From: a virus | DNA: 20,896 nucleotides | IMG/VR virus record: IMGVR_UViG_3300046454_000619 | Location: 1-20,896 of that record | Reading direction: 5' to 3' (one strand) | Shown here: piece by piece, positions 3,088 through 19,814 of the stretch | Layout: the number at the start of each line of letters is the position of its first letter | Numbering within the stretch: position 1 is the first letter of the stretch | Notes under the pieces: model-generated | Database searches by the model: none | What the model saw: the letters and a program-made list of their open reading frames with translations, nothing else | What the model was told of the DNA's origin: nothing | Position numbers and translations under genes: made by a program

Positions 3088-3163
3088 GGCAACGGTATAT
3101 TAAATATTTACGTTAAACGCTAGAATGAGTATAGTGGCTCATCTTTTCAAAAAGGTGAGAATG

Positions 3164-3949
3164 ATGAAACCTAAACAGATATACGGGTTAATTGATCCGC
3201 GCAATGATCAAATTAGATATATTGGTGCCAGTATAAATCCTGTAAAACGTATTGCTATCGGTGCTCAACATAATGCGGCCAAAATAGATTGGTTAAAAGT
3301 TCTAGCCATATTGGGATTAAAGCCGCGAATTGATATTATAGAAATTGTTGATGAGACATCTGACTGGGTAGAGCGTGAGAGATACTGGATCGCCTATTAC
3401 CGAGAACAAGGTGAAGATCTGTTGAATCTTGCTGATGGAGGCCCTGGGCGTCCGGGGGTATCTACTTCAGACGAAACTCGTGCTAGAATGGTAATAGCTT
3501 GGGAAAGGCGTCGTAAGCGTGGAGAGCCCCAATTCACTCCAGAAGGACTTCAACGTTTAAGAGAAAAAGGGTATATAAATAGCCGTAAATTTTGGGATAA
3601 TCCTACTCCGGAGGGATTGACGGCAATTCAGGAAGCTAATGCGCGCGGTTGGGAAAAGATTCCACCCGAAGAACGATCTCGCCGAGCTACGGAACAGAAC
3701 GAACGCACTTGGAACGCTTATACCGAAGAGGAACGCGCGGAACGTGGTAGGGGAATCAGTAAAGGCCATATGTCTAGACCAGCGGCGGAACGCTCGGAAA
3801 GCGCGAGAGCCGGTGGATTTTCTTCACATAAAAAGGATCCAGAAGCGGCACGTAAACGCATCAAAGAATGGTGGGATAGCCTGACGCCAGAGCAGAGGTC
3901 TGAGGAAGGTAGAAAGCGTGCTGAAACTAGAAGAAAAAACCGCGACTAG
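3164..3949 (+). CDS. GIY-YIG homing endonuclease, inserted between hub and tail peptidase genes
   Basis: I chose the ATG at 3164 because AAAGGTGAG (3151-3159) is placed as its ribosome site and the catalytic domain starts at once; an in-frame ATG at 3125 has no such site. The N-terminal domain (about residues 5-90) has IYGLI (variant GIY), RYIG (YIG), a conserved Arg region KRIAIG and the ERYWIAYY glutamate segment. The rest repeats short basic segments of the type 'TPE..R' or 'EER' with Trp and Lys/Arg, resembling the modular DNA-binding repeats (NUMOD3-like) of phage homing endonucleases. It is clearly AT-rich against its neighbours, so probably acquired. Its last 32 bases overlap the peptidase gene and carry that gene's ribosome site. 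Confidence 0.88.
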   Translation: MKPKQIYGLIDPRNDQIRYIGASINPVKRIAIGAQHNAAKIDWLKVLAILGLKPRIDIIEIVDETSDWVERERYWIAYYREQGEDLLNLADGGPGRPGVSTSDETRARMVIAWERRRKRGEPQFTPEGLQRLREKGYINSRKFWDNPTPEGLTAIQEANARGWEKIPPEERSRRATEQNERTWNAYTEEERAERGRGISKGHMSRPAAERSESARAGGFSSHKKDPEAARKRIKEWWDSLTPEQRSEEGRKRAETRRKNRD

Positions 3950-12971: not shown

Positions 12972-14396
12972 TTAGCCCGGCAGCGCCTCGAACTCGTGGA
13001 CCCAGCGGATCACCTGTTCCGAGAACCCGTCCAGGTGGGTCCACCGCTCCCCGTAGCCGACGCCGTTCTGGTAGGCCGCGACGTTGATCAGGTACGCGCG
13101 GGCGGCGCGGGGCGGCGGCACGTGGTCGCGCGACTGCTCGTCGGTGATCACGATCAGCCGGTCCATATCGAGGTTCGCGAGGCTGCCCACCGCCGAGCCC
13201 AGCTGGGTTCCCTGGTGGGGCTGGCTGTCGATGATCTGGCGGATGCCGGATAGCCCCTGAGGAACCTCGTTGTTGAGCGCGACCAGGTGGTTCGAGAACG
13301 TATAGACGCGCACGTCGCCGTGGATCATAACCGCGAGCGCCGCTGCCGCGTCGATGCGGGAGAGGTCCGACTTGGCGGAGATCTTAGCGTCCATGGAGCC
13401 GGAGACGTCGACCAGCACGACCGTCCGGCCCGGTAGGACCGGGAGCTCGGCCACGGCGGCCCTCATGGCCGGGTCGAGGAACGGTACCATCTCCGGGCAC
13501 GCCCGCGCCGCCGCGACGTAGCGGAACGGCAGCACGCGGCGCGCCCCCTTGCGGGCGAGGATCGCGGACGAGACGAGGCTCGGGTCGACCCCGGCCTCGG
13601 TCATGTTCCGCAGGTTGCGCAGCAGCGCCAGATAGCCCAGCTTGCCGTCGCGCAGCTGACCCTCGAAGACGTCCTTCTTGTGCTGCTCCTTGGTGACGCC
13701 CTCGGCGGGGCCGGCGGACAGCCCCACCTCCCACGTGTCGGCGGACTTCACCTCGCCGGCGACGAGCTGTTTCCACAGCGCGGCCTGCTCGGCGTCCCTC
13801 GGCTTGGGGTGGACGAGGAACATCACGTCGCGGCCCTTGATCGGCTGGCCGGCCTCGCCGGAGGGCGAGAAATACTTCGCCAGCGCGTAGCGGTCGAACT
13901 TACCGAACGCCGCGGCCAGGCCCTTCTTGACCTGGGCTGACAGCTTCTTCTTGAGCGCCTTCGGCTCCACGCCGTTGGCCCGCGCGTAGACCGCGAGGAA
14001 CTCGCTCAGCTCGTCGGCGCGTTGGATAGTTTGGGAGATCGTATCGCTTACGATACGAGTTCCCGAACCGGTGCGCGCGAGGACGGCGCACAGCAGCAGC
14101 GGCACGTGCCGCAGGTTGAGGTGCGACCGCGCGTCGATCGCCAGCTGGGCGAGGACGGTCGGGGCCACCTGCCCGGCGAGGTCGGTGATCCGCGCCGCGA
14201 TGTCCTGGCCGGACTCGTAGAAGGTGTCCTCCCACAGGAGGCACGCGCAGACCGAGCGGCGCAGCGCCATTTCGGGCGAGATGAGCGCGGCCGGCGCGCC
14301 CTCGTGGGTGCGTAGCGTGTTGCTGGGCTCGAAGACGCGCGGCGGGGTTCCGCCCTGTGGCGGCAGCGCCGGCTTACGGGAGTTGAGTGCGGCCAT
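12972..14396 (-). CDS. Ro60 orthologue (TROVE domain plus vWA/MIDAS domain)
   Basis: 474 residues from ATG 14396, chosen because AGGAGG (14406-14411 on the complement) sits 9 bases upstream; ATG 14405 is an alternative. The N-terminal about 320 residues are the HEAT-like TROVE ring (PEMALRRSVCACLLWED, HLNLRHVPLLLCAVLA, RADELSEFLAVYARANG, YLALLRNLRNMTEAGV). The C-terminal vWA domain has a complete MIDAS motif DVSGSM (D330, S332, S334) and a later ITDEQS. Family knowledge: Ro60 is a doughnut-shaped protein that binds misfolded RNA ends and Y RNA; in Deinococcus, Y RNA tethers it to PNPase. Three structured RNAs with Y RNA features lie directly upstream on the same strand, behind promoter P1. 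Confidence 0.95.
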   Translation of the reverse strand: MAALNSRKPALPPQGGTPPRVFEPSNTLRTHEGAPAALISPEMALRRSVCACLLWEDTFYESGQDIAARITDLAGQVAPTVLAQLAIDARSHLNLRHVPLLLCAVLARTGSGTRIVSDTISQTIQRADELSEFLAVYARANGVEPKALKKKLSAQVKKGLAAAFGKFDRYALAKYFSPSGEAGQPIKGRDVMFLVHPKPRDAEQAALWKQLVAGEVKSADTWEVGLSAGPAEGVTKEQHKKDVFEGQLRDGKLGYLALLRNLRNMTEAGVDPSLVSSAILARKGARRVLPFRYVAAARACPEMVPFLDPAMRAAVAELPVLPGRTVVLVDVSGSMDAKISAKSDLSRIDAAAALAVMIHGDVRVYTFSNHLVALNNEVPQGLSGIRQIIDSQPHQGTQLGSAVGSLANLDMDRLIVITDEQSRDHVPPPRAARAYLINVAAYQNGVGYGERWTHLDGFSEQVIRWVHEFEALPG

Positions 14397-14448
14397 TGAG
14401 ATCATCCTCCTGGGGTGATCGACCGCTGGGAGAGGCACCGGGGGAACG

Positions 14449-14565
14449 GGCGGTAACGGGTTGTGTGGACCCCCTTGCGGGGGCACGCCGGGATTTGAAC
14501 CCGGACCCACGGCTTGATGGGCCGTTGCTCTACCAAAGAGCTTCGATGCAACCGTAACCTACGCC
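14449..14565 (-). ncRNA. Candidate Y RNA 3 (YrlA-like, with tRNA-like module)
   Basis: The ends pair: 5' GGCGTAGGTTACGGTTG (14565-14549) with 3' CAACCCGTTACCGCC (14463-14449). This gives helices of 3, 3, 4 and 3 bp separated by a GUA bulge on the 5' strand, a U-U mismatch and one bulged C. Inside is a tRNA-like module without acceptor stem: D arm GCTC/GAGC with GG in the loop (14541-14527), anticodon-like arm ACGGC-CCATCAA-GCCGT (14525-14509), canonical T arm CCGGG-TTCAAAT-CCCGG (14504-14488), then a hairpin CCCCC-GCAA-GGGGG with GNRA loop (14483-14470). A D, anticodon and T arm set on a long closing stem is what tRNA-mimicking bacterial Y RNAs show. It ends about 50 bases before the Ro60 start codon. 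Confidence 0.75.
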
Positions 14566-14595
14566 ACCCGGCGTCTATCCAGCGATCGAGGAACA

Positions 14596-14690
14596 AGCGG
14601 AAGCGGTACACCCACCGAGGTGGGTTCTGGGTTCGAACCAGATAGGATGCCCGAGGGCATCTTTTCACCGAAGTACCCGCGTCCTACGCC
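14596..14690 (-). ncRNA. Candidate Y RNA 2 (reduced tRNA-like module)
   Basis: 5' GGCGTAGGACGCGGGTAC (14690-14673) pairs with 3' GTACCGCTTCCGCT (14609-14596) as helices of 3, 3, 4 and 3 bp, with the same GUA bulge, a C-U mismatch at the same place as in copy 3, and one bulged G. The interior has a short D-like arm (TTCGGTGAA), a hairpin GATGCC-CTCG-GGCATC (14661-14646), a canonical T arm TCTGG-TTCGAAC-CCAGA (14642-14626) and an abutting hairpin ACCCAC-CTCG-GTGGGT (14625-14610). It is followed by TGTTCCTCG, matching the 3' flanks of the other copies. Confidence 0.75.
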
Positions 14691-14719
14691 ATCGACCTAA
14701 AACTCTGCGCTCGGGAACA

Positions 14720-14786
14720 GGCGGGATCGAGAGCGGGGCCGAAGCCCCAGGCGCTGTTCAAGTGCGATGAACTCGATCCCTACGCC
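14720..14786 (-). ncRNA. Candidate Y RNA 1 (minimal copy without T arm)
   Basis: 5' GGCGTAGGGATCGAG (14786-14772) pairs with 3' CTCGATCCCGCC (14731-14720): 3 bp, the GUA bulge, then 9 perfect bp. Inside are a small hairpin TTCA-TCGCACT-TGAA and GGGGC-TTCG-GCCCC with a UUCG tetraloop (14748-14735). There is no D or T arm. It starts about 8 bases downstream of the expected start of transcription at P1, and its 3' flank TGTTCCCGAG matches the other copies. It looks like a Ro-binding stem without the tRNA mimic. Confidence 0.6.
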
Positions 14787-14800
14787 ACGAGCACGGGGGG

Positions 14801-14829
14801 TTTATACTCTCCTTCGGCGGATAAGTAAA
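14801..14829 (-). promoter_or_regulatory. Promoter P1 for the Y RNA / Ro60 transcript
   Basis: On the complement: TTTACT (-35, 14829-14824), a 17-base spacer, TATAAA (-10, 14806-14801). The expected start is about 14794, just before candidate Y RNA 1. The layout, including the preceding T/A-rich tract, GGTTTACTT and CCCC after the -10 box, repeats at P2. Confidence 0.75.
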
Positions 14830-14856
14830 CCTAAAAAGCGCCCACTGAGTCACTTT

Positions 14857-15468
14857 TTACGCCAACTCCACGTTATGATACAACCATGAGCCAAAATCTT
14901 CCCGCACGTCGTTCGCGAGGAACTCCAGGCCCGCGCGCAGCAGCTCCGCCGGGGTTGGTGCCCGCGGCGGCTTGAGCGGCCGGAGGCCCGACGCGCGCCG
15001 GGCCGAGTACCGCGGAAGGCTGTCCCGCTTGCGCTTGTTGCACTCGACGCACGCCGACACGATGTTGTCCCACCGCGTCTCGCCACCGCGCGAGCGCGGT
15101 ACGACGTGGTCGTACGTCAGCTCGGCTTCGTCGAATCGCTCCCCGCAGTACTGGCACCTATACCGGTCGCGCAGGAGGATCGAGCGCCGGCAGAACTTCG
15201 GCTCGGCGTCGACGCAGGCGTATGCACGTAGCATCATCACTTTCGGCACGGCGATGGTCGTGCTCGGTGAGCGAAAGAACGCGCCGGGCCACTCCTCGAC
15301 CACGATCGCCTTGTCCAGCCACGCGGCCGTGACGGCGTCGGCGGCCGAGATTAGGTTCAGCGGCCACGTGGATAGCGGACGGCCGTCGGCATTGAGCACC
15401 AGGGTGCGCAGCGTCGTCGGGTGGCGCAGCGAACTTCGCTCTTTGCTCTTAGCCCACGTGTGGATCAT
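14857..15468 (-). CDS. HNH endonuclease (C2C2 zinc type) between tRNA array and Ro60
   Basis: 203 residues. The N-terminal part (TLVLNADGRPLSTWPLNLISAADAV...) is the conserved leader of a common bacterial and phage HNH family. The core has C105-x2-C108, then YDHVVPRSRGGETRWDNIV (D120, H121, N135) and C140-x2-C143 followed by basic residues. Typical roles are nicking or cutting DNA, as a free-standing homing enzyme or in packaging or recombination. The ATG lies two bases after the encoded CCA of tRNA-Thr(CGT), and its only visible ribosome site (AGGAG) lies in that tRNA's acceptor stem. It ends 28 bases upstream of promoter P1. GC-rich like the phage backbone, so probably long resident. Confidence 0.9.
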   Translation of the reverse strand: MIHTWAKSKERSSLRHPTTLRTLVLNADGRPLSTWPLNLISAADAVTAAWLDKAIVVEEWPGAFFRSPSTTIAVPKVMMLRAYACVDAEPKFCRRSILLRDRYRCQYCGERFDEAELTYDHVVPRSRGGETRWDNIVSACVECNKRKRDSLPRYSARRASGLRPLKPPRAPTPAELLRAGLEFLANDVREDFGSWLYHNVELA

Positions 15469-15470
15469 GA

Positions 15471-15545
15471 TGGTGCTCCTGGAGAGAATCGAACTCGTCG
15501 TCTACCGCTTACGAGGCGGTTGTCCTGCCACTGAACGACAAGAGC
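15471..15545 (-). tRNA. tRNA-Thr(CGT)
   Basis: Acceptor GCTCTTG/CAGGAGC, A73 and CCA encoded. Anticodon loop CTCGTAA in a 5-bp stem ACCGC/GCGGT. T loop TTCGATT, but the T stem has only three good pairs. The acceptor strand also holds the ribosome site of the following HNH gene. Confidence 0.85.
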
Positions 15546-15547
15546 GT

Positions 15548-15622
15548 TGGTGCCCCGAGAGGGACTCGAACCCCCGACTCCCCGGTTAAAGGCCGGGAAC
15601 TCTGCCGCTGAGTTACCGAGGC
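15548..15622 (-). tRNA. tRNA-Lys(TTT), C33
   Basis: Acceptor GCCTCGG/TCGGGGC with wobbles, A73, CCA encoded. Anticodon arm CCCGG-CCTTTAA-CCGGG; position 33 is C instead of the near-universal T. T arm GGGGG-TTCGAGT-CCCTC is canonical. Confidence 0.88.
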
Positions 15623-15624
15623 GG

Positions 15625-15701
15625 TGGTGCGCAGTCTCGGATTCGAACCGAGAGGACCCGGTTTTTGAAACCAGGATGTCTACCAGTTGCATCAACTGCG
15701 C
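15625..15701 (-). tRNA. tRNA-Leu(CAA), short variable loop
   Basis: Acceptor GCGCAGT/ACTGCGC, A73, CCA encoded. Anticodon arm CTGGT-TTCAAAA-ACCGG. T arm CTCGG-TTCGAAT-CCGAG. D loop AACTGGTA is leucine-like, but the variable loop is only five bases where bacterial leucine tRNAs have a long arm. Confidence 0.82.
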
Positions 15702-15703
15702 CC

Positions 15704-15780
15704 TGGTGCGCACCGGGAGATTCGAACTCCCACTGGGCCGGGCTTAAACCGGCTGCCTCTACCAGTTGGGCTACGTGCGC
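15704..15780 (-). tRNA. tRNA-Leu(TAA), short variable loop
   Basis: Acceptor GCGCACG/GGTGCGC (last pair mismatched), A73, CCA encoded. Anticodon arm GCCGG-TTTAAGC-CCGGC. T arm GGGAG-TTCGAAT-CTCCC. Variable loop five bases. Close relative of the adjacent CAA copy (same acceptor start and D loop), so probably a duplication. Confidence 0.82.
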
Positions 15781-15782
15781 GG

Positions 15783-15857
15783 TGGTGGTCTCGCCGGGAG
15801 TCGAACCCGGATCTTAGGTTTCGGAGACCTACGCTCGGTCCATCGAGCTGCGAGACT
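15783..15857 (-). tRNA. tRNA-Arg(CCG)
   Basis: Acceptor AGTCTCG/CGAGACC (first pair mismatched), A73, CCA encoded. Anticodon arm TAGGT-CTCCGAA-ACCTA, D arm GCTC/GAGC, T arm CCGGG-TTCGACT-CCCGG. Its 5' 29 bases are also the 3' end of an HNH reading frame. Confidence 0.88.
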
Positions 15858-16293
15858 TAAGTTGTAAGCCAAGCTTAGTGAGTCTGCCTAATGCCCCTTT
15901 ACGGCCGCCTATTTTTAACCGTTCAAACGCTTCTGAACTAATATTCAGAGTTCCCCAAGTATCAGTCTGAGAATGACAGTTTGGGCAAAGACCTTGAAGA
16001 TTTTCACGCGAATTATCGTTTTTATTTCCGTTCAAGTGATCAAGTTCTAACCTAATAGGACGACCATTCCACTCAGTTATACCACAAATTAAGCACGCAT
16101 TTGATTGTTCTTCAAATACACGCTTTCTCCGTTTAGTTCTACCTAGCATTTCAAATGTACGTGGCAGCGTTATACGTTTTATTTTTCTAATCCTACGCGG
16201 GTTATTAAATTTAGCCGAACAAGATTGGCCGCAAAATTTGCCATTTCGATTTTTATAAGGTAATTCTTTACCGCAGTTTTGGCATATTTTCAT
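15829..16293 (-). CDS. HNH homing endonuclease inside the tRNA array, AT-rich
   Basis: 154 residues; ATG preceded by GAGAGG. The N-terminus is a small zinc motif (C4-x2-C7, C21-x3-C25: MKICQNCGKEL...FCGQSC). The HNH core has C67-x2-C70, LELDHLNGNKNDNSRENLQGLCPNCH (D85, H86, N98) and C103-x2-C106-H107. Such proteins are free-standing homing endonucleases common in phages. The DNA is far more AT-rich than the flanking tRNAs, so it is a recent insert. Its last nine codons and stop run into tRNA-Arg(CCG), so its C-terminus is partly dictated by tRNA sequence. No remnants of a split gene are visible. Confidence 0.9.
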   Translation of the reverse strand: MKICQNCGKELPYKNRNGKFCGQSCSAKFNNPRRIRKIKRITLPRTFEMLGRTKRRKRVFEEQSNACLICGITEWNGRPIRLELDHLNGNKNDNSRENLQGLCPNCHSQTDTWGTLNISSEAFERLKIGGRKGALGRLTKLGLQLKSRSSMDRA

Positions 16294-16312
16294 ATATACC
16301 TCTCGATAAAGA

Positions 16313-16384
16313 TGGAACCCCGCCCGAGGATCGAACTCGGCGCTGCTGGCTTAGAAGGCCTGCGTGCGTCCCAGCGCGCGGGGT
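16313..16384 (-). tRNA. tRNA-Arg(TCT), short D arm
   Basis: Acceptor ACCCCGC/GCGGGGT, T73, CCA encoded. Anticodon loop CTTCTAA in CAGGC/GCCAG (one A-A mismatch). T arm CCGAG-TTCGATC-CTCGG. Only 72 bases because the D region is 15 bases with a weak stem. Confidence 0.8.
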
Positions 16385-16386
16385 AT

Positions 16387-16458
16387 TGGCGCCCCCTGAG
16401 AGAGTCGAACTCCCCTTCCCGGGTTCGTAGCCCAGGTGCCGGGTCCGCCGGAGAGGGC
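16387..16458 (-). tRNA. tRNA-Arg(ACG), short D arm
   Basis: Acceptor GCCCTCT/AGGGGGC, G73, CCA encoded. Anticodon arm CTGGG-CTACGAA-CCCGG; A34 would need deamination to inosine by host TadA to read CGC. T arm GGGAG-TTCGACT-CTCTC. 72 bases with a reduced D arm. It directly abuts the next tRNA. Confidence 0.82.
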
Positions 16459-16532
16459 TGGTCGAGCGGACGGGATTTGAACCCGCGTTGGACAGATTGA
16501 AAATCTGTGGTCCTACCTTAGACGACCGCTCG
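16459..16532 (-). tRNA. tRNA-Glu(TTC)
   Basis: Acceptor CGAGCGG/CCGCTCG, A73, CCA encoded. D arm GTCT/GGAC, anticodon arm ACAGA-TTTTCAA-TCTGT, T arm GCGGG-TTCAAAT-CCCGT. Canonical throughout. Confidence 0.92.
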
Positions 16533-16534
16533 GT

Positions 16535-16786
16535 TTACCAGTAGTAGATGTGCGGCTTCTTCTCGACCGGCCAGACGATTCCCTCCGGGTCGCGCCCCTG
16601 CATCACCAGGACGACCGCGGCGCGGGTCCGGCGACGACGCGGCCGGGTGTGAAACGTGATGTCCCAGGCCCGCGGCCACTGGGAGAGCCAGTGGTAGCGG
16701 TCCCAGTCCGGCTGGCGCCGACGATGCTTGTCGCGTCCGCGGCAGTGGCGGGTCGTCCGCGGGTATCCGCGTTTGTAGTTCGCCAT
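16535..16786 (-). CDS. Small very basic phage protein of unknown function
   Basis: 83 residues; ATG preceded by AGGAGG at good spacing. The sequence is rich in Arg, His and Trp (MANYKRGYPRTTRH, HRRRQPDWDRYHWLSQWPRAW, HTRPRRRRTRA, ending KKPHIYYW). The high positive charge suggests nucleic-acid binding, but no named domain is recognised. It sits between tRNA-Glu and a 140-base structured gap and ends two bases before the tRNA start. GC content matches the backbone, and the strong start signals make it a real gene. Confidence 0.75.
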   Translation of the reverse strand: MANYKRGYPRTTRHCRGRDKHRRRQPDWDRYHWLSQWPRAWDITFHTRPRRRRTRAAVVLVMQGRDPEGIVWPVEKKPHIYYW

Positions 16787-16926
16787 GAGTAGCCTCCTGT
16801 GGGTAAGCTATGACATGACGAACCTCCTTTCATGGACGCGGGGCGACCCGAGGCGTTACCCAGAGCCGAGTCACCAAAAGTAACGAGCCGCCCGTCGGCG
16901 ACGGCTCCGGGGCTCTGTCCGCTTGT
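16787..16926 (-). other. Intergenic segment with hairpins and a two-codon leader frame
   Basis: No tRNA found. On the complement there are inverted repeats GAGCCG/CGGCTC with inner CCGTC-GCC-GACGG, AGAGCC/GGCTCT, and GTTAC/GTGAC. Near the downstream gene a strong ribosome site (AAGGAGG) precedes ATGTCATAG, a two-codon frame, before the gene's own AGGAGG. This could be the 5' leader of the 83-residue gene. Confidence 0.4.
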
Positions 16927-17000
16927 TGGTGGGTCCCCGAGGAATCGAACCCCGATCTGGAGTGTGTAGGACTCCGGCCCTGCCATTAGACGAGGGACCC
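16927..17000 (-). tRNA. tRNA-Val(TAC), C33
   Basis: Acceptor GGGTCCC/GGGACCC, A73, CCA encoded. D arm GTCT/AGGGC region with GG; anticodon arm GGAGT-CCTACAC-ACTCC with C at 33. T arm CGGGG-TTCGATT-CCTCG. Confidence 0.88.
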
Positions 17001-17004
17001 TGTA

Positions 17005-17076
17005 TGGCGCCGACGCGGGGACTCGAACCCCGGCTCCCTCGCTTAGGAGGCGTGGGCGCGATCCGTCGCCGTCGGC
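17005..17076 (-). tRNA. tRNA-Arg(CCT), short D arm
   Basis: Acceptor GCCGACG/CGTCGGC, G73, CCA encoded. Anticodon loop CTCCTAA in CACGC/GCGAG (one A-A mismatch). T arm CGGGG-TTCGAGT-CCCCG. 72 bases; D arm GCGA-CGGA-TCGC. Confidence 0.82.
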
Positions 17077-17081
17077 GGTAT

Positions 17082-17159
17082 TGGTCGGAGTGAGAGGATT
17101 CGAACCTCTGGCAACCCGCTTCCAGGGCGGGGACTCTGGCCTGACTGAGCTACACTCCG
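17082..17159 (-). tRNA. tRNA-Pro(TGG), C33
   Basis: Acceptor CGGAGTG/CACTCCG, A73, CCA encoded. D arm GCTC/GAGT, anticodon arm CCCGC-CCTGGAA-GCGGG with C33, T arm AGAGG-TTCGAAT-CCTCT. Confidence 0.88.
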
Positions 17160-17162
17160 TAA

Positions 17163-17237
17163 TGGCGCGCCCGACCGGGATCAAACCGGCCTGACCCGGT
17201 AGACAGCCGGGTGTCCTCTTCAGATGACTACGGGCGC
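17163..17237 (-). tRNA. tRNA-Asp(GTC)
   Basis: Acceptor GCGCCCG/CGGGCGC, G73 (expected for Asp), CCA encoded. Anticodon arm CCCGG-CTGTCTA-CCGGG. T loop TTTGATC has T in place of C56. Confidence 0.88.
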
Positions 17238-17242
17238 TTTGA

Positions 17243-17317
17243 TGGTGCGCGCGGAGGGACTCGAACCCCCGTCCTACTGGTTAAGGGCCAGCAGCTCTGC
17301 CGCTGAGCTACGCACGC
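17243..17317 (-). tRNA. tRNA-Lys(CTT), C33
   Basis: Acceptor GCGTGCG/CGCGCGC, A73, CCA encoded. D arm GCTC/GAGC, anticodon arm GCTGG-CCCTTAA-CCAGT with C33, T arm GGGGG-TTCGAGT-CCCTC. Related to tRNA-Lys(TTT), which also has C33. Confidence 0.88.
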
Positions 17318-17324
17318 GTGAAAC

Positions 17325-17398
17325 TGGTACCCCCACCCTGTACTGACCAGGGATTTCGCGGTTATCGGCCGCGCTCTCTACCATTGAGATATAGGGGC
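17325..17398 (-). tRNA. tRNA-Ile(GAT), C33 and non-canonical T loop
   Basis: Acceptor GCCCCTA/TGGGGGT, A73, CCA encoded. D arm TCTC/GAGA, anticodon arm CGCGG-CCGATAA-CCGCG with C33. T stem CCCTG/CAGGG is perfect but its loop is GTCAGTA, lacking the TTC motif. Confidence 0.78.
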
Positions 17399-17400
17399 GT

Positions 17401-17486
17401 TGGTGGGGAAAGGCTGAGTCGAACAGCGCGCCCGTAGGCGACCGGGTTACAGCCGGCTTACCGCGTCCCGCGGCTGACACTTCCCC
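17401..17486 (-). tRNA. tRNA-Tyr(GTA), class II
   Basis: Acceptor GGGGAAG/TTTCCCC, A73, CCA encoded. Anticodon arm GCCGG-CTGTAAC-CCGGT, long variable arm (CGCC..GGGCG) as expected for bacterial Tyr, T loop TTCGACT. Confidence 0.87.
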
Positions 17487-17487
17487 G

Positions 17488-17562
17488 TGGTGCCGTCGGC
17501 GGGGATCGAACCCGCAGCCTCCCGCTTACCAAGCGGATGCACGCCCATCGTGCTGCGACGGC
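17488..17562 (-). tRNA. tRNA-Thr(GGT)
   Basis: Acceptor GCCGTCG/CGACGGC, A73, CCA encoded. Anticodon arm TCCGC-TTGGTAA-GCGGG, T arm GCGGG-TTCGATC-CCCGC. Canonical. Confidence 0.9.
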
Positions 17563-17563
17563 T

Positions 17564-17653
17564 TGGCGGACAGCCTCGGGCATGATCCGAATCCCCTCTC
17601 GGGGACACACCGCTTAGCAGGCGGGTCCGGCAACCGTACCGGCTGTGCTGTCC
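17564..17653 (-). tRNA. tRNA-Ser(GCT), non-canonical T loop
   Basis: Acceptor GGACAGC/GCTGTCC, G73 (serine), CCA encoded. Anticodon loop CTGCTAA, long variable arm (TCCCC..GGGGA). T stem TTCGG/CCGAG encloses ATCATGC rather than a TTCRA loop. Confidence 0.8.
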
Positions 17654-17657
17654 TAAT

Positions 17658-17746
17658 TGGCGGGCGACCGAGGTCCTGATCCCCATGCCCCGGAGGGCAC
17701 CACCGGTGTTCGAAGCCGGGCCGCGCGCTCGCGCGGTTGATCGCCC
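17658..17746 (-). tRNA. tRNA-Ser(CGA), non-canonical T loop
   Basis: Acceptor GGGCGAT/GTCGCCC, G73, CCA encoded. Anticodon loop TTCGAAC in CCGGC/ACCGG (last pair C-A), long variable arm TGCCC..GGGCA. T stem TGGGG/CCTCG with loop ATCAGGA. Confidence 0.78.
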
Positions 17747-17749
17747 TTA

Positions 17750-17838
17750 TGGAGGAAGGCGGGTGGTGTCGATCCCCACCCCTTTGCGGGGCCACCGGGT
17801 TTCAAAGCCGGGCCGCGAGCCGTCGCGGTTCACCTTCC
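17750..17838 (-). tRNA. tRNA-Ser(TGA), degenerate T arm
   Basis: Acceptor GGAAGGT/GCCTTCC, T73, CCA encoded. Anticodon loop TTTGAAA, long variable arm GGCCCC..GGGGT. The T arm is atypical: GGTGG/CCACC with a nine-base loop. Confidence 0.74.
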
Positions 17839-17996
17839 GTAAACCTTCTTCCCCTGGCTAGGATTATGAGTCCGCGCGCCAGCGCACCAAGCAGGTTTAG
17901 AGCCCACCAGCACTCGGGGCTGACTAGGCCCCTATGGGGAGTTGGGGTGGGACCCTCTGCCCAGTAGTCAGCCGGGCCGCTTTCCCACCGTGCCTC
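17839..17996 (-). other. 158-base unresolved structured gap between two serine tRNAs
   Basis: No complete tRNA fits. On the complement there is a 9-bp inverted repeat GGCTGACTA/TAGTCAGCC, a 7-bp pairing GGTGGGA/TCCCACC, and a part closed by TAAACC/GGTTTA (next to the Ser(TGA) 5' end). That part contains CTGGC/GCCAG and a methionine-like hairpin GGA-CTCATAA-TCC, but has no room for a T arm. It may be decayed tRNA genes or another small RNA. Confidence 0.4.
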
Positions 17997-18085
17997 TGGA
18001 GGATGCCGTCGCTGCCGACGCGAACGCCCTCCCGGGCGCCAACCGGCTTCCGACCGGTGCCGGGGGCCGCCCCGGTTCAGCATCC
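17997..18085 (-). tRNA. tRNA-Ser(GGA), C33, degenerate T arm
   Basis: Acceptor GGATGCT/GGCATCC, T73, CCA encoded. Anticodon arm ACCGG-TCGGAAG-CCGGT with C33, long variable arm GCGCCC..GGGCG. The T arm region lacks a TTCRA loop. Fourth serine acceptor, completing NCU/UCN coverage with the other three. Confidence 0.74.
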
Positions 18086-18091
18086 ATTAAC

Positions 18092-18168
18092 TGGTGCGCA
18101 GGGAGGGAGTCGAACCCTCAAAACTCCACGGTCTGAACGTGGCGACTTTACCGTTTGCCCACCTGCGC
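18092..18168 (-). tRNA. tRNA-Leu(CAG), short variable loop
   Basis: Acceptor GCGCAGG/CCTGCGC, A73, CCA encoded. Anticodon arm CCACG-TTCAGAC-CGTGG, T arm GAGGG-TTCGACT-CCCTC, D loop with ACGGTAAA. Variable loop six bases, no long arm. Confidence 0.83.
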
Positions 18169-18175
18169 GGTGGCT

Positions 18176-18251
18176 TGGTACGCGCGGGGCGACTCGAACG
18201 CCCACTTGCGAGGCCCTCGACCTCGTGCCTCTACCGTTGGGCTACGCGCGC
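18176..18251 (-). tRNA. tRNA-Leu(GAG), C33, short variable loop
   Basis: Acceptor GCGCGCG/CGCGCGT, A73, CCA encoded. Anticodon arm CGAGG-TCGAGGG-CCTCG with C33, T arm GGGCG-TTCGAGT-CGCCC, variable loop five bases. Confidence 0.83.
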
Positions 18252-18256
18252 ATAAT

Positions 18257-18333
18257 TGGTCGTCCCAGGGGGAATCGAACCCACCTCCTCCGCCTTGAGA
18301 GGGCGGCGTCCTAGGCCGGTAGACGATGGGACG
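18257..18333 (-). tRNA. tRNA-Glu(CTC)
   Basis: Acceptor CGTCCCA/TGGGACG, A73, CCA encoded. D arm GTCT region, anticodon arm CCGCC-CTCTCAA-GGCGG, T loop TTCGATT. Abuts tRNA-Gln(TTG). Confidence 0.88.
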
Positions 18334-18407
18334 TGGAAGGCCTCCAGGGATTCGAACCCCGATACACGGCATCAAAAACCGTGGGCTTGCCGTTAGCCGA
18401 GAGGCCC
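18334..18407 (-). tRNA. tRNA-Gln(TTG)
   Basis: Acceptor GGGCCTC/GAGGCCT (first pair G-U), T73, CCA encoded. Anticodon arm ACGGT-TTTTGAT-GCCGT, T arm CGGGG-TTCGAAT-CCCTG. Confidence 0.88.
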
Positions 18408-18551
18408 GTCGTCGCTGGTAGGGGATGCGGGAATCGAACCCACGTCCTCCGGGTCAGAGCCGGATGCACTGGCCGCTGTGCTAATCCCCATCAATTCGTT
18501 GCGCTGCTCCTCGGCCAGGGCCAGGAGGCGCTCGATCTCGTCCCGCGTCAT
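18393..18551 (-). CDS. Short protein (52 aa) running through tRNA-Gln genes
   Basis: ATG 18551 has AGGAGG at ideal spacing. The first 20 codons (MTRDEIERLLALAEEQRNEL) look like a charged amphipathic helix. The frame then reads through the whole of tRNA-Gln(CTG) and stops inside tRNA-Gln(TTG), so the last about 30 residues are dictated by tRNA sequence. It may be a real small helix protein whose natural stop was lost. Function unknown. Confidence 0.4.
   Translation of the reverse strand: MTRDEIERLLALAEEQRNELMGISTAASASGSDPEDVGSIPASPTSDDGPLG
18416..18490 (-). tRNA. tRNA-Gln(CTG)
   Basis: Acceptor TGGGGAT/ATCCCCT with an open first pair (U-U); a weak 1-72 pair is typical of glutamine tRNAs. A73, CCA encoded. 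Anticodon arm TCCGG-CTCTGAC-CCGGA, T arm GTGGG-TTCGATT-CCCGC. A short reading frame runs through it. Confidence 0.88.
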
Positions 18552-18666
18552 CGCGCCCTCCTCTCAAGATCGTGTTGAACCGGCACGGGCCTCCGGAGGC
18601 CGGGCATCGGAGCTCGTGGAGCTCCGGGTCGTAGGTCGCGCATGGCGTTAGGAGGTCCGACGGCAT
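18481..18666 (-). CDS. Short Cys-containing protein (61 aa) in the tRNA array
   Basis: ATG 18666 is preceded by GGAGGT at good spacing; an upstream in-frame ATG at 18699 lies within tRNA-Thr(TGT) and is unlikely. The sequence MPSDLLTPCATYDPELHELRCPASGGPCRFN contains three cysteines that could bind zinc. The second half overlaps the next short frame out of register and is Gly/Arg/Pro-rich. Function unknown. Confidence 0.4.
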   Translation of the reverse strand: MPSDLLTPCATYDPELHELRCPASGGPCRFNTILRGGRDDAGRDRAPPGPGRGAAQRIDGD

Positions 18667-18683
18667 ATCGCTTACCTCCGAAT

Positions 18684-18760
18684 TGGTGCCCACGGTCACG
18701 ATTCGAACGGACGACTTCCGGCTTACAAAACCGGCGCTCTGCCGACTGAGCTACGCGGGC
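18684..18760 (-). tRNA. tRNA-Thr(TGT)
   Basis: Acceptor GCCCGCG/CGTGGGC, A73, CCA encoded. D arm GCTC/GAGC, anticodon arm CCGGT-TTTGTAA-GCCGG, T loop TTCGAAT with an imperfect stem. Third threonine isoacceptor. Confidence 0.87.
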
Positions 18761-18766
18761 GAATAA

Positions 18767-18931
18767 GCATACGCGGGCTACGCGATGGGACTTTCATGCG
18801 TCGTGTAATTCCAAGCGGATTAGATGGTACTCTTAGGCCGCCCTCGTGCCCCGCAGTCTCCGCTCACCGGGGTACCGCCCGTACGGACAACCGCTTCCCT
18901 GTACACGCTCAGGGCGTAGCCCACGTATGCT
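18767..18931 (-). ncRNA. 165-base structured RNA closed by a 17-bp helix, unknown type
   Basis: GCATACGTGGGCTACGC (18931-18915) pairs with GCGTAGCCCGCGTATGC (18783-18767). The single imperfect pair is a G-U wobble on the minus strand but a C-A mismatch on the plus strand, which points to a minus-strand RNA. Inside are CCCTG/CAGGG, AAGCGG/CCGCTT, GGTAC/GTACC and CCCCG/CGGGG pairings. It lies tightly between tRNA-His and tRNA-Thr(TGT) and does not fit a tRNA, tmRNA or RNase P RNA by eye. Confidence 0.55.
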
Positions 18932-18934
18932 TAC

Positions 18935-19010
18935 TGGGGTGAGGTGCGGGTGCTGGCCCCGCTGCTTCGCCTTCACAGGGCGACGTGTCCTCTGGTTCAC
19001 TAACCTCACC
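18935..19010 (-). tRNA. tRNA-His(GTG), encoded G-1, non-canonical T loop
   Basis: Extra 5' G pairs with C73, the histidine identity element: GGTGAGGT/ACCTCACC then CCA. Anticodon arm TCGCC-CTGTGAA-GGCGA, D arm GTG/CAC. T stem GCGGG/CCCGC is perfect but the loop is GCCAGCA. Confidence 0.82.
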
Positions 19011-19011
19011 A

Positions 19012-19084
19012 TGGAGCCACGCTGGCGAATCGAACGCCTTGTCCCGGGTTGCAACCGAGCGCCTCTCCATTTGGCTTGCGCGGC
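19012..19084 (-). tRNA. tRNA-Cys(GCA)
   Basis: Acceptor GCCGCGC/GCGTGGC, T73 (expected for Cys), CCA encoded. D arm GCC/GGC, anticodon arm CTCGG-TTGCAAC-CCGGG, T loop TTCGATT. Confidence 0.88.
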
Positions 19085-19085
19085 T

Positions 19086-19158
19086 TGGCACCGGCGGAGC
19101 GGAATTGAACCCTCCTGCAGGGGTTTGGAGTCCCTGATGTTCACCAGAACGCGCCGGT
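19086..19158 (-). tRNA. tRNA-Trp(CCA)
   Basis: Acceptor ACCGGCG/CGCCGGT, G73 (expected for Trp), CCA encoded. Anticodon loop CTCCAAA in AGGGA/CCCCT (last pair A-C). T loop TTCAATT, T stem with one bulged base. Confidence 0.87.
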
Positions 19159-19161
19159 AAT

Positions 19162-19237
19162 TGGCTCCCATCCCAGGTACCGCCCCTGGCCGCATCGGAT
19201 TAACAGTCCGCGCCGTTCGCTTGCTCGGTCGATGGGA
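19162..19237 (-). tRNA. tRNA-Asn(GTT), non-canonical D and T loops
   Basis: Acceptor TCCCATC/GATGGGA, G73, CCA encoded. Anticodon arm GCGGA-CTGTTAA-TCCGA. T stem CCAGG/CCTGG perfect with loop GGCGGTA. The D arm CCG/CGG has loop AGCAAGCGAA without the usual GG, so both tertiary-contact partners changed together. Confidence 0.8.
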
Positions 19238-19342
19238 ATGAAACTGTTGAGTGAGAATTTTACATAGCCCCCACTCACGGCTCTCATCGCGACGCTTCAA
19301 CCCAAGCTATCCTAGGTCCGGGGTGTATACGAGTCGCGAAAC
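19238..19342 (-). other. 105-base gap with short hairpins
   Basis: No tRNA or gene recognised. On the complement TCGCGAC/GTCGCGA pairs over about 40 bases, and GTGAG/CTCAC encloses ATGTAAAATT. It may be spacer, a processing element or a decayed tRNA. Confidence 0.35.
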
Positions 19343-19417
19343 TGGAGCGGACGGCGGGAATCGAACCCGCTACCGGGTGCTTGGAAGGCACCGACTCTGC
19401 CAATGAGTTACGCCCGC
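19343..19417 (-). tRNA. tRNA-Gly(TCC)
   Basis: Acceptor GCGGGCG/CGTCCGC, T73, CCA encoded. Anticodon arm GGTGC-CTTCCAA-GCACC, T arm GCGGG-TTCGATT-CCCGC. Canonical. Confidence 0.9.
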
Positions 19418-19418
19418 G

Positions 19419-19494
19419 TGGTGCCGAGACCTGGGATCGCACCAGGATGTCGCCGCCTTCAACGGCGCGCGAGGACTACCTTTGCTATCTCGGC
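19419..19494 (-). tRNA. tRNA-Phe(GAA)
   Basis: Acceptor GCCGAGA/TCTCGGC, A73, CCA encoded. Anticodon arm CGCCG-TTGAAGG-CGGCG. T stem CCTGG/CCAGG with loop TGCGATC, in which position 55 is G instead of T. Confidence 0.87.
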
Positions 19495-19499
19495 GAAAT

Positions 19500-19576
19500 T
19501 GGAGGCAGGGAGCGGATTCGAACCGCTGACCTCGAGGTTATGGGCCTCGCGCGCTGCCAGGCTGCGCCACCCTGCG
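19500..19576 (-). tRNA. Initiator tRNA-fMet(CAT), C33
   Basis: Closely follows bacterial initiator tRNA: CGCAGGGTGG start, GCAGCCTGGCAGC D arm, and an unpaired C1-C72. Anticodon arm CGAGG-CCCATAA-CCTCG has C33, and only two of the three usual G-C pairs at the loop end. T arm AGCGG-TTCGAAT-CCGCT, T73, CCA encoded. Confidence 0.82.
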
Positions 19577-19584
19577 TCAAAATC

Positions 19585-19660
19585 TGGTCCCGGTGGGTGG
19601 AGTCGAACCAACCGACCTAGCCGTTATGAGCGGCCCGATCTTCCGCTGATCTACACCGGG
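19585..19660 (-). tRNA. tRNA-Met(CAT), elongator (or Ile2)
   Basis: Acceptor CCCGGTG/CACCGGG, A73, CCA encoded. Anticodon arm GGCCG-CTCATAA-CGGCT. T loop TTCGACT. With a paired first position it is not an initiator; a lysidine-modified isoleucine tRNA for AUA cannot be excluded by sequence. Confidence 0.85.
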
Positions 19661-19661
19661 G

Positions 19662-19735
19662 TGGAGCGGCCATGGGAAATCGAATCCCACCCTTCTCGTT
19701 GGCAACGAGATGCTCGACCTCCGAGCTGTGGCCGC
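19662..19735 (-). tRNA. tRNA-Gly(GCC)
   Basis: Acceptor GCGGCCA/TGGCCGC, T73, CCA encoded. D arm GCTC/GAGC, anticodon arm TCTCG-TTGCCAA-CGAGA, T arm TGGGA-TTCGATT-TCCCA. Confidence 0.92.
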
Positions 19736-19739
19736 AATT

Positions 19740-19814
19740 TGGTGGAGAACGAGGGAATCGAACCCTCATGACGCGATCTTGCAAGGATCGCCGCCGCCCC
19801 AGCAGCCGTTCCCC
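19740..19814 (-). tRNA. tRNA-Ala(TGC)
   Basis: Acceptor GGGGAAC/GTTCTCC, A73, CCA encoded. Anticodon arm CGATC-CTTGCAA-GATCG, T arm GAGGG-TTCGATT-CCCTC. First tRNA of the array after the leader; the canonical G3-U70 pair of alanine is present (third pair G-T). Confidence 0.9.

Follow-up and report, generated by a model that had tools for sequence, protein, structure and literature searches.

An RNA element beside a viral ro60 gene appears to present a tRNA cloverleaf with its arms in natural order. The window, the whole 20,896-base virus record analyzed here, carries three Y-like RNAs on its minus strand, and we interpret the third (copy 3), from its sequence and that of its relatives, as a phage Ro60-associated Y RNA whose effector module is a natural-order tRNA cloverleaf tethered by its acceptor end (probability about 0.6). 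We favor the Y RNA reading because copy 3 lies ∼30 bp upstream of the ro60/TROVE gene, carries the TGGCGUAGG motif found in its two neighboring copies and in the Y-like RNAs that precede other ro60 genes, and is matched in layout by relatives. These observations also support the initial annotation, which had called copy 3 a Y RNA with a tRNA-mimicking part. The minus strand additionally carries a 26-gene tRNA array and an HNH gene (14857-15468), and the plus-strand tail genes resemble gene-transfer-agent-like families. The main features of the locus are as follows:

12972..14405, minus strand: Ro60/TROVE-vWA protein, 477 aa (PF05731, PF25045, PHROG 850, PDB TROVE chains)
14437..14572, minus strand: Y-RNA-like element copy 3 in full, both lower-stem strands included (supported by its fold and by the TGGCGUAGG motif it shares)
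14584..14697, minus strand: Y-like RNA copy 2, with a tetraloop hairpin, T arm, and capped hairpin
14707..14794, minus strand: Y-like RNA copy 1, with two hairpins and without a tRNA-like T arm
15471..19814, minus strand: tRNA array, 26 genes, CCA encoded in each

The Ro60/TROVE gene scored 33.9 bits against PF05731 (cut-off 23) and 27.4 against PF25045, marginally below the cut-off of 27.7. It matched PHROG 850 with an E value of 1.5e-46 as well as the TROVE chains of PDB entries 9l5y and 9kop, and phage records with related Ro60 proteins number 89. The copy 1 region resembles Brevundimonas phage DNA over a partial match (72-75%). Endonuclease genes are also present in the window: a GIY-YIG endonuclease at 3125-3949 between tail genes and, in or near the tRNA array, the HNH endonuclease at 14857-15468 and a weak HNH_3 match at 15829-16293.

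From 5′ to 3′, copy 3 consists of a lower stem, GGCGUAGG, an upper stem, UGCAUCG, the D, anticodon-like, and T arms, a GCAA-capped hairpin, and the returning strands of the upper and lower stems, all on the minus strand:

14558..14565, minus strand: GGCGUAGG, 5′ side (conserved) of the bulged stem presumed to bind Ro60, shared by copies 1-3 and the Y-like RNAs preceding related ro60 genes
14552..14559, minus strand: upper Y stem, 5′ strand GGUUACGG, partner 14452-14459 with one U.U mismatch (pair probabilities 0.36-0.99, mismatch at 0; L115 counterpart compared by eye)
14544..14550, minus strand: UGCAUCG, equivalent to the class motif UACUUCG, its last two bases pairing with 14486-14487 (acceptor stub)
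14527..14541, minus strand: D arm with GG, GCUC-UUUGGUA-GAGC (pair probability 0.995-0.997)
14509..14525, minus strand: anticodon-like arm ACGGC-CCAUCAA-GCCGU, 5-bp/7-nt with C33 (by class comparison)
14488..14504, minus strand: T arm CCGGG-UUCAAAU-CCCGG, canonical
14470..14483, minus strand: GCAA-capped hairpin CCCCC-GCAA-GGGGG, 3′ of the T arm (probability ∼0.99)
14437..14459, minus strand: 3′ strand of the upper and lower Y stem

Prediction and comparison together give copy 3 paired 5′ and 3′ ends with a bulged stem and the conserved motif. The D arm with GG, 7-base anticodon-like loop, and canonical T arm described initially are all present, and the bulged Y stem and GNRA (GCAA) hairpin are seen in the fold next to the module; the interval originally assigned, 14488-14565, covers the arms but neither the GNRA hairpin nor the 3′ strand of the Y stem. 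Likewise as described, copy 3 is not followed by CCA, with which all 26 array tRNAs end. The tRNA likeness exceeds chance, since the Rfam tRNA model matches copy 3 with 40.5 bits (E 1.3e-5) over model positions 6-65 of 71. A model built without copy 3 placed it top in the window, narrowly (55.4 bits versus 54.6 for a real tRNA-Gly). ViennaRNA assigned the 5-bp/7-nt anticodon register a probability of ∼0.15-0.16 and favored a 6-bp/6-nt hairpin; class comparison is the basis for the canonical register. The whole fold is only slightly more stable than dinucleotide-shuffled sequences (z −1.9; 4 of 100 shuffles were as low). Compared with Rfam 15 at E up to 5, positions 14390-14850 matched tRNA and, below threshold, mascRNA and no Y RNA family; across 12 loci scanned, no Rfam Y family matched at the gathering threshold.

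The cloverleaf is joined to the Y stem through a shortened acceptor. In copy 3 this stub comprises 2 bp, C6-G67 and G7-C66, on the T-proximal side, or five pairs if a U is bulged. That there is no acceptor stem, as first annotated, is correct for a 7-bp acceptor, which neither the window copy nor L115 formed continuously on folding, but not for the stem altogether, as the 2-bp stub remains and covaries in the class. Among 21 aligned sequences, positions 7 and 66 pair in 21 (GC 15, UA 5, GU 1) and 6 and 67 in 21, with pairing falling outward to 18 at 5-68, 14 at 4-69, and 8 at 3-70; the 5′-strand letters at positions 3-6 had been set by the search pattern, which left position 7 and the 3′ strand free. 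Outside the pattern, L181, L212, and L243 have stubs of 5-6 pairs with different letters (by eye). Because relatives keep a stub of 2-6 bp and pair 7-66 covaries, we regard the acceptor as truncated rather than absent. A complete acceptor hidden in the flanks, as a bulged 5-bp GCA(U)CG/CGUGC pairing in copy 3, was considered and rejected: L115 retains at most 3 bp of it. The constrained energy of copy 3 was −48.5 with the hidden acceptor and −50.5 without it (MFE −64.2), and the bulged pairing is possibly, at most, an extension of the stub.

The linear layout recurs well beyond this phage. The first relatives with the same order, spacing, and GCAA hairpin were L063, L115, and L157, whose Ro60 proteins are ∼61-63% identical to that of the window; the spacing from Y motif to D arm is 24 nt in copy 3, L063, and L115, and the unconstrained MFE structure of L115 is exactly the linear fold. 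A descriptor result that had confined the linear order to the window phage and L063/L115 was overturned by a pattern search, which returned 37 stretches, 23 of them with a D-anticodon-T (D-AC-T) core. A ro60 gene was present on 20 of the 23 contigs with this core versus 0 of 14 without it. The order was found in 20 further distinct sequences and in three more loci (L181, L212, L243), which the descriptor missed and which were recovered with model R1 and read by eye. Models R1 and R2 separate poorly from ordinary tRNAs, and their matches were filtered by eye, with 20 inspected; a BLAST search of linear Y RNA against phages was swamped by tRNAs. The linear form was not found in L368-L372 and L049-L051 when scanned with the motif used.

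Covariation was assessed on 21 deduplicated sequences including the window (L354, an insertion variant of L342, was omitted). Pairing was retained in 99.0% of 293 cells versus at most 46.4% when the alignment was slid, and compensatory changes on both sides were seen at all five pairs of the anticodon stem and four of five in the T stem. The D stem and UACUUC are fixed by the search pattern, and their invariance was not counted as evidence. The same GCAA-capped hairpin is found in L115, L063, and L366, and a capped hairpin is missing in 5 of the 21 aligned sequences.

The arms of copy 3 follow one another as in an ordinary tRNA, D-AC-T, without circular permutation. Bacteria as well as phages with related ro60 genes have Y-like RNAs upstream of these genes. 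Scanning 216 ro60 loci by motif and stem, we obtained 349 distinct Y-like calls, of which 199 lacked a T arm, 100 were permuted, 43 had just the T arm, 5 were linear, and 2 were mixed. Among the five labeled linear, L063 and L115 alone were genuine; L044, L045, and L311 proved false on inspection. Shuffled loci yielded 63 chance calls (one strand) versus 416 real ones (ro60 strand), both before removal of duplicate and distant calls, so part of the class lacking a T arm is due to chance. By eye, a permuted Y RNA also occurs in 9 of 26 linear loci (L338, L341, L345, L349, L350, L351, L355, L363, L366); the scan itself counted 11 of 26, with the L063 and L353 rows being ordinary tRNA matches. 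The window falls outside these nine, its copy 2 having the arm order of the permuted type with the D arm absent after the T arm.

The permuted order in related phages agrees with the description of PDB 6CU1, whose superposition on tRNA involves a circular permutation (PMC11472068). Like YrlA-type Y RNA (Salmonella; PDB 6CU1), copy 3 is encoded with ro60/rsr and has a long stem of paired ends; the YrlA module has D, T, and acceptor-like arms (PMC8394870), of which copy 3 has the D and T arms. Copy 3 departs from the permuted 6CU1 (PMC11472068): its D arm is followed by a closed anticodon arm, and its Y stem joins at the acceptor end. Permuted phage Y RNAs (L042, Xanthomonas phage Olaya; L044 and L045, Caulobacter phages; L046, Brevundimonas phage Gurke) share the GGYGUA and UACUUC motifs and the arrays upstream of ro60, but their order is anticodon-like hairpin, T arm, capped acceptor, D arm, with the tether between the D and anticodon arms. 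Linear Y RNAs of uncultivated phages (L115, L063, L181, L366, L338, and others) share the order, spacing, stub, and often a GNRA-capped hairpin, and differ from copy 3 in having U33 in 19 of 20 seven-base loops and, in some, stubs of up to 5-6 bp. tmRNA and viral tRNA-like structures have partial tRNA mimicry in common with copy 3, which has neither a tag reading frame nor an aminoacylatable 3′ end.

The copy 3 module is most likely the effector end of a phage Ro60 RNP, a prediction for which anatomy, order, stub covariation, and recurrence beside ro60 provide the sequence-level basis. The acceptor stem is cut to a T-arm-proximal stub, its two strands continuing into the presumed Ro60-binding Y stem with the capped hairpin next to the stub. 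The Y stem would bind the phage Ro60 ring, and the tRNA-like elbow and exposed anticodon arm may engage a tRNA-binding factor, which, judging from Deinococcus, could be PNPase, or alternatively tRNA-modifying enzymes. In this way the module could act as a tether or a gate for the RNP as it deals with structured or damaged RNA (tRNA included) in the course of infection. Ro60 (Rsr) and Y RNA of Deinococcus tether PNPase for the decay of structured RNA (PMC8394870), and YrlA is modified by DusA and TruB (PMC8394870, PMC7790460). Against our interpretation stand the ambiguous anticodon arm, the held-out model score barely above tRNA-Gly, and a stub of only 2 clean bp.

The main rival to recruitment of a tRNA-binding factor is that linear Y RNAs display anticodons as decoys or competitive inhibitors of host anticodon nucleases, sparing real tRNAs, which we consider unlikely. 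The 20 seven-base loops of the class do look like genuine anticodon loops rather than one fixed loop (U33 in 19, a purine at 37 in 20, G/U at 34 in 18, and 13 different triplets), the phages are rich in tRNAs, and the tRNA-like domain of YrlA has been suggested as a competitive anticodon nuclease inhibitor (PMC7790460). However, the window copy, with loop CCAUCAA, is the sole class exception at position 33, and its preference for another register when folded alone makes it less likely that the anticodon arm matters much in this phage. Moreover, YrlA was not a substrate of the nuclease in the same study (PMC7790460), and no nuclease partner is known for the window phage.

C33 was the ground for the suggestion that the mimic may derive from a local tRNA gene. 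It is indeed shared with several array tRNAs, 6 of 26 (Met, Leu-GAG, Lys-CTT, Pro-TGG, Val-TAC, Lys-TTT), compared with 14 of 212 tRNAs in 11 other loci. Evasion of tRNA cleavage is a subject of PMC10264068, and the anticodon-loop changes in the array might be related to it. Set against the U33 of its class, C33 is a feature of copy 3's own. Recent capture of a tRNA gene from the adjoining array, merged with a Y RNA, would account for the shared C33 and the 70-72% similarity of copy 3 to the best tRNAs. Yet over its 60-nt core copy 3 shows the same identity, 72%, to the orthologous Y RNA of phage L115 as to Gly-TCC and Arg-CCG, the array tRNAs that score best, and no array tRNA outscores the L115 Y RNA (19.5 for the array, 19.5-20.5 for the L115/L063 relatives). 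As array tRNAs score 8-37 among themselves, the 19.5 of copy 3 lies within the array's own range and equals that of its relatives, so no local parent is indicated. L115 and L063 keep the same layout, hairpin, and spacing, and far ro60 lineages have the same layout, which, being common to other phages, is probably older than the window array; we judge local capture improbable. A decaying tRNA relic or chance fold in GC-rich DNA, with which the modest z of −1.9 would fit, is less probable again, being contradicted by the compensatory changes over 21 sequences, the conserved site beside ro60, and the 0 of 14 chance pattern matches beside ro60. Least credible of all is a functional tRNA. ARAGORN calls tRNA-Pro TGG at 14479-14568 and Rfam finds a tRNA there, but we dismissed this identity given the short acceptor and missing CCA; the ARAGORN structure places the anticodon elsewhere, and a normal tRNA-Pro(TGG) exists at 17082-17159. 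A 7-bp acceptor, 3′ CCA, and U33 are all lacking in copy 3, the last also in six of the 26 array tRNAs.

The reading of copy 3 as a linear, acceptor-tethered Y RNA bears on how such RNAs arose. Chen 2014 reportedly described Y RNAs that mimic tRNA, in phages as well as bacteria. Listeria phage CKA15 has been proposed to encode Y RNAs (PMC12282133), jumbo phages have been noted to carry TROVE proteins (PMC7824862), and a Ro60-related protein is on record for a Vibrio phage (PMC7765460). Searches turned up no account of a Y RNA in linear order in the open-licence literature, within which, as far as we have read, the layout is new and tRNA-mimicking Y RNAs, phages included, are not. A quick Ro60 tree of 65 rows, whose "other" rows were not individually shown to be free of the linear form, requires at least four changes of the linear label, four being forced by well-supported branches, which suggests either repeated origin or movement of Y RNAs between ro60 genes. 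We tentatively propose, at somewhat less than even odds, that prokaryotic Y RNAs comprise two topologies of one tRNA fold, a known permuted form tethered between the D and anticodon arms and an undescribed linear form tethered by a truncated acceptor; the latter would have arisen or spread on at least four occasions in the phage Ro60 lineages, coexisting with the permuted form in one array and carrying real-looking, variable anticodon loops. If so, phage Ro60 particles would display tRNA mimics differing in orientation and anticodon. The tie of bacterial Y RNA to tRNA mimicry came through one permuted structure; a second topology would separate the features, the elbow being retained in both and the attachment point not. 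The linear topology would make it possible to test what the mimic recruits and whether tRNAs gave rise to Y RNAs once or several times.

ARAGORN- and Rfam-based annotation labels such Y RNAs as tRNAs and calls for caution. Upstream of ro60, an annotated tRNA-Gln in CcrColossus (L045, 2179-2246) and an annotated tRNA-Ser in Gurke (L046, 2769-2843) overlap permuted Y-like RNAs and look misannotated. Brevundimonas phage Gurke also carries a permuted tmRNA (L046, 6345-6690; RF04321, 57.7 bits), and an ARAGORN tmRNA call adjoins a phage tRNA array in L018 (4027-4386). Divergent uncultivated phages (L338, L341, L345, L349, L350, L355, L363) have extended series of Y-like RNAs in which several types of module occur, including linear, permuted, T-arm-only, and D-arm variants. 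A possible third layout, in the order capped hairpin, D, anticodon, T, was seen in L224 (2728-2792).
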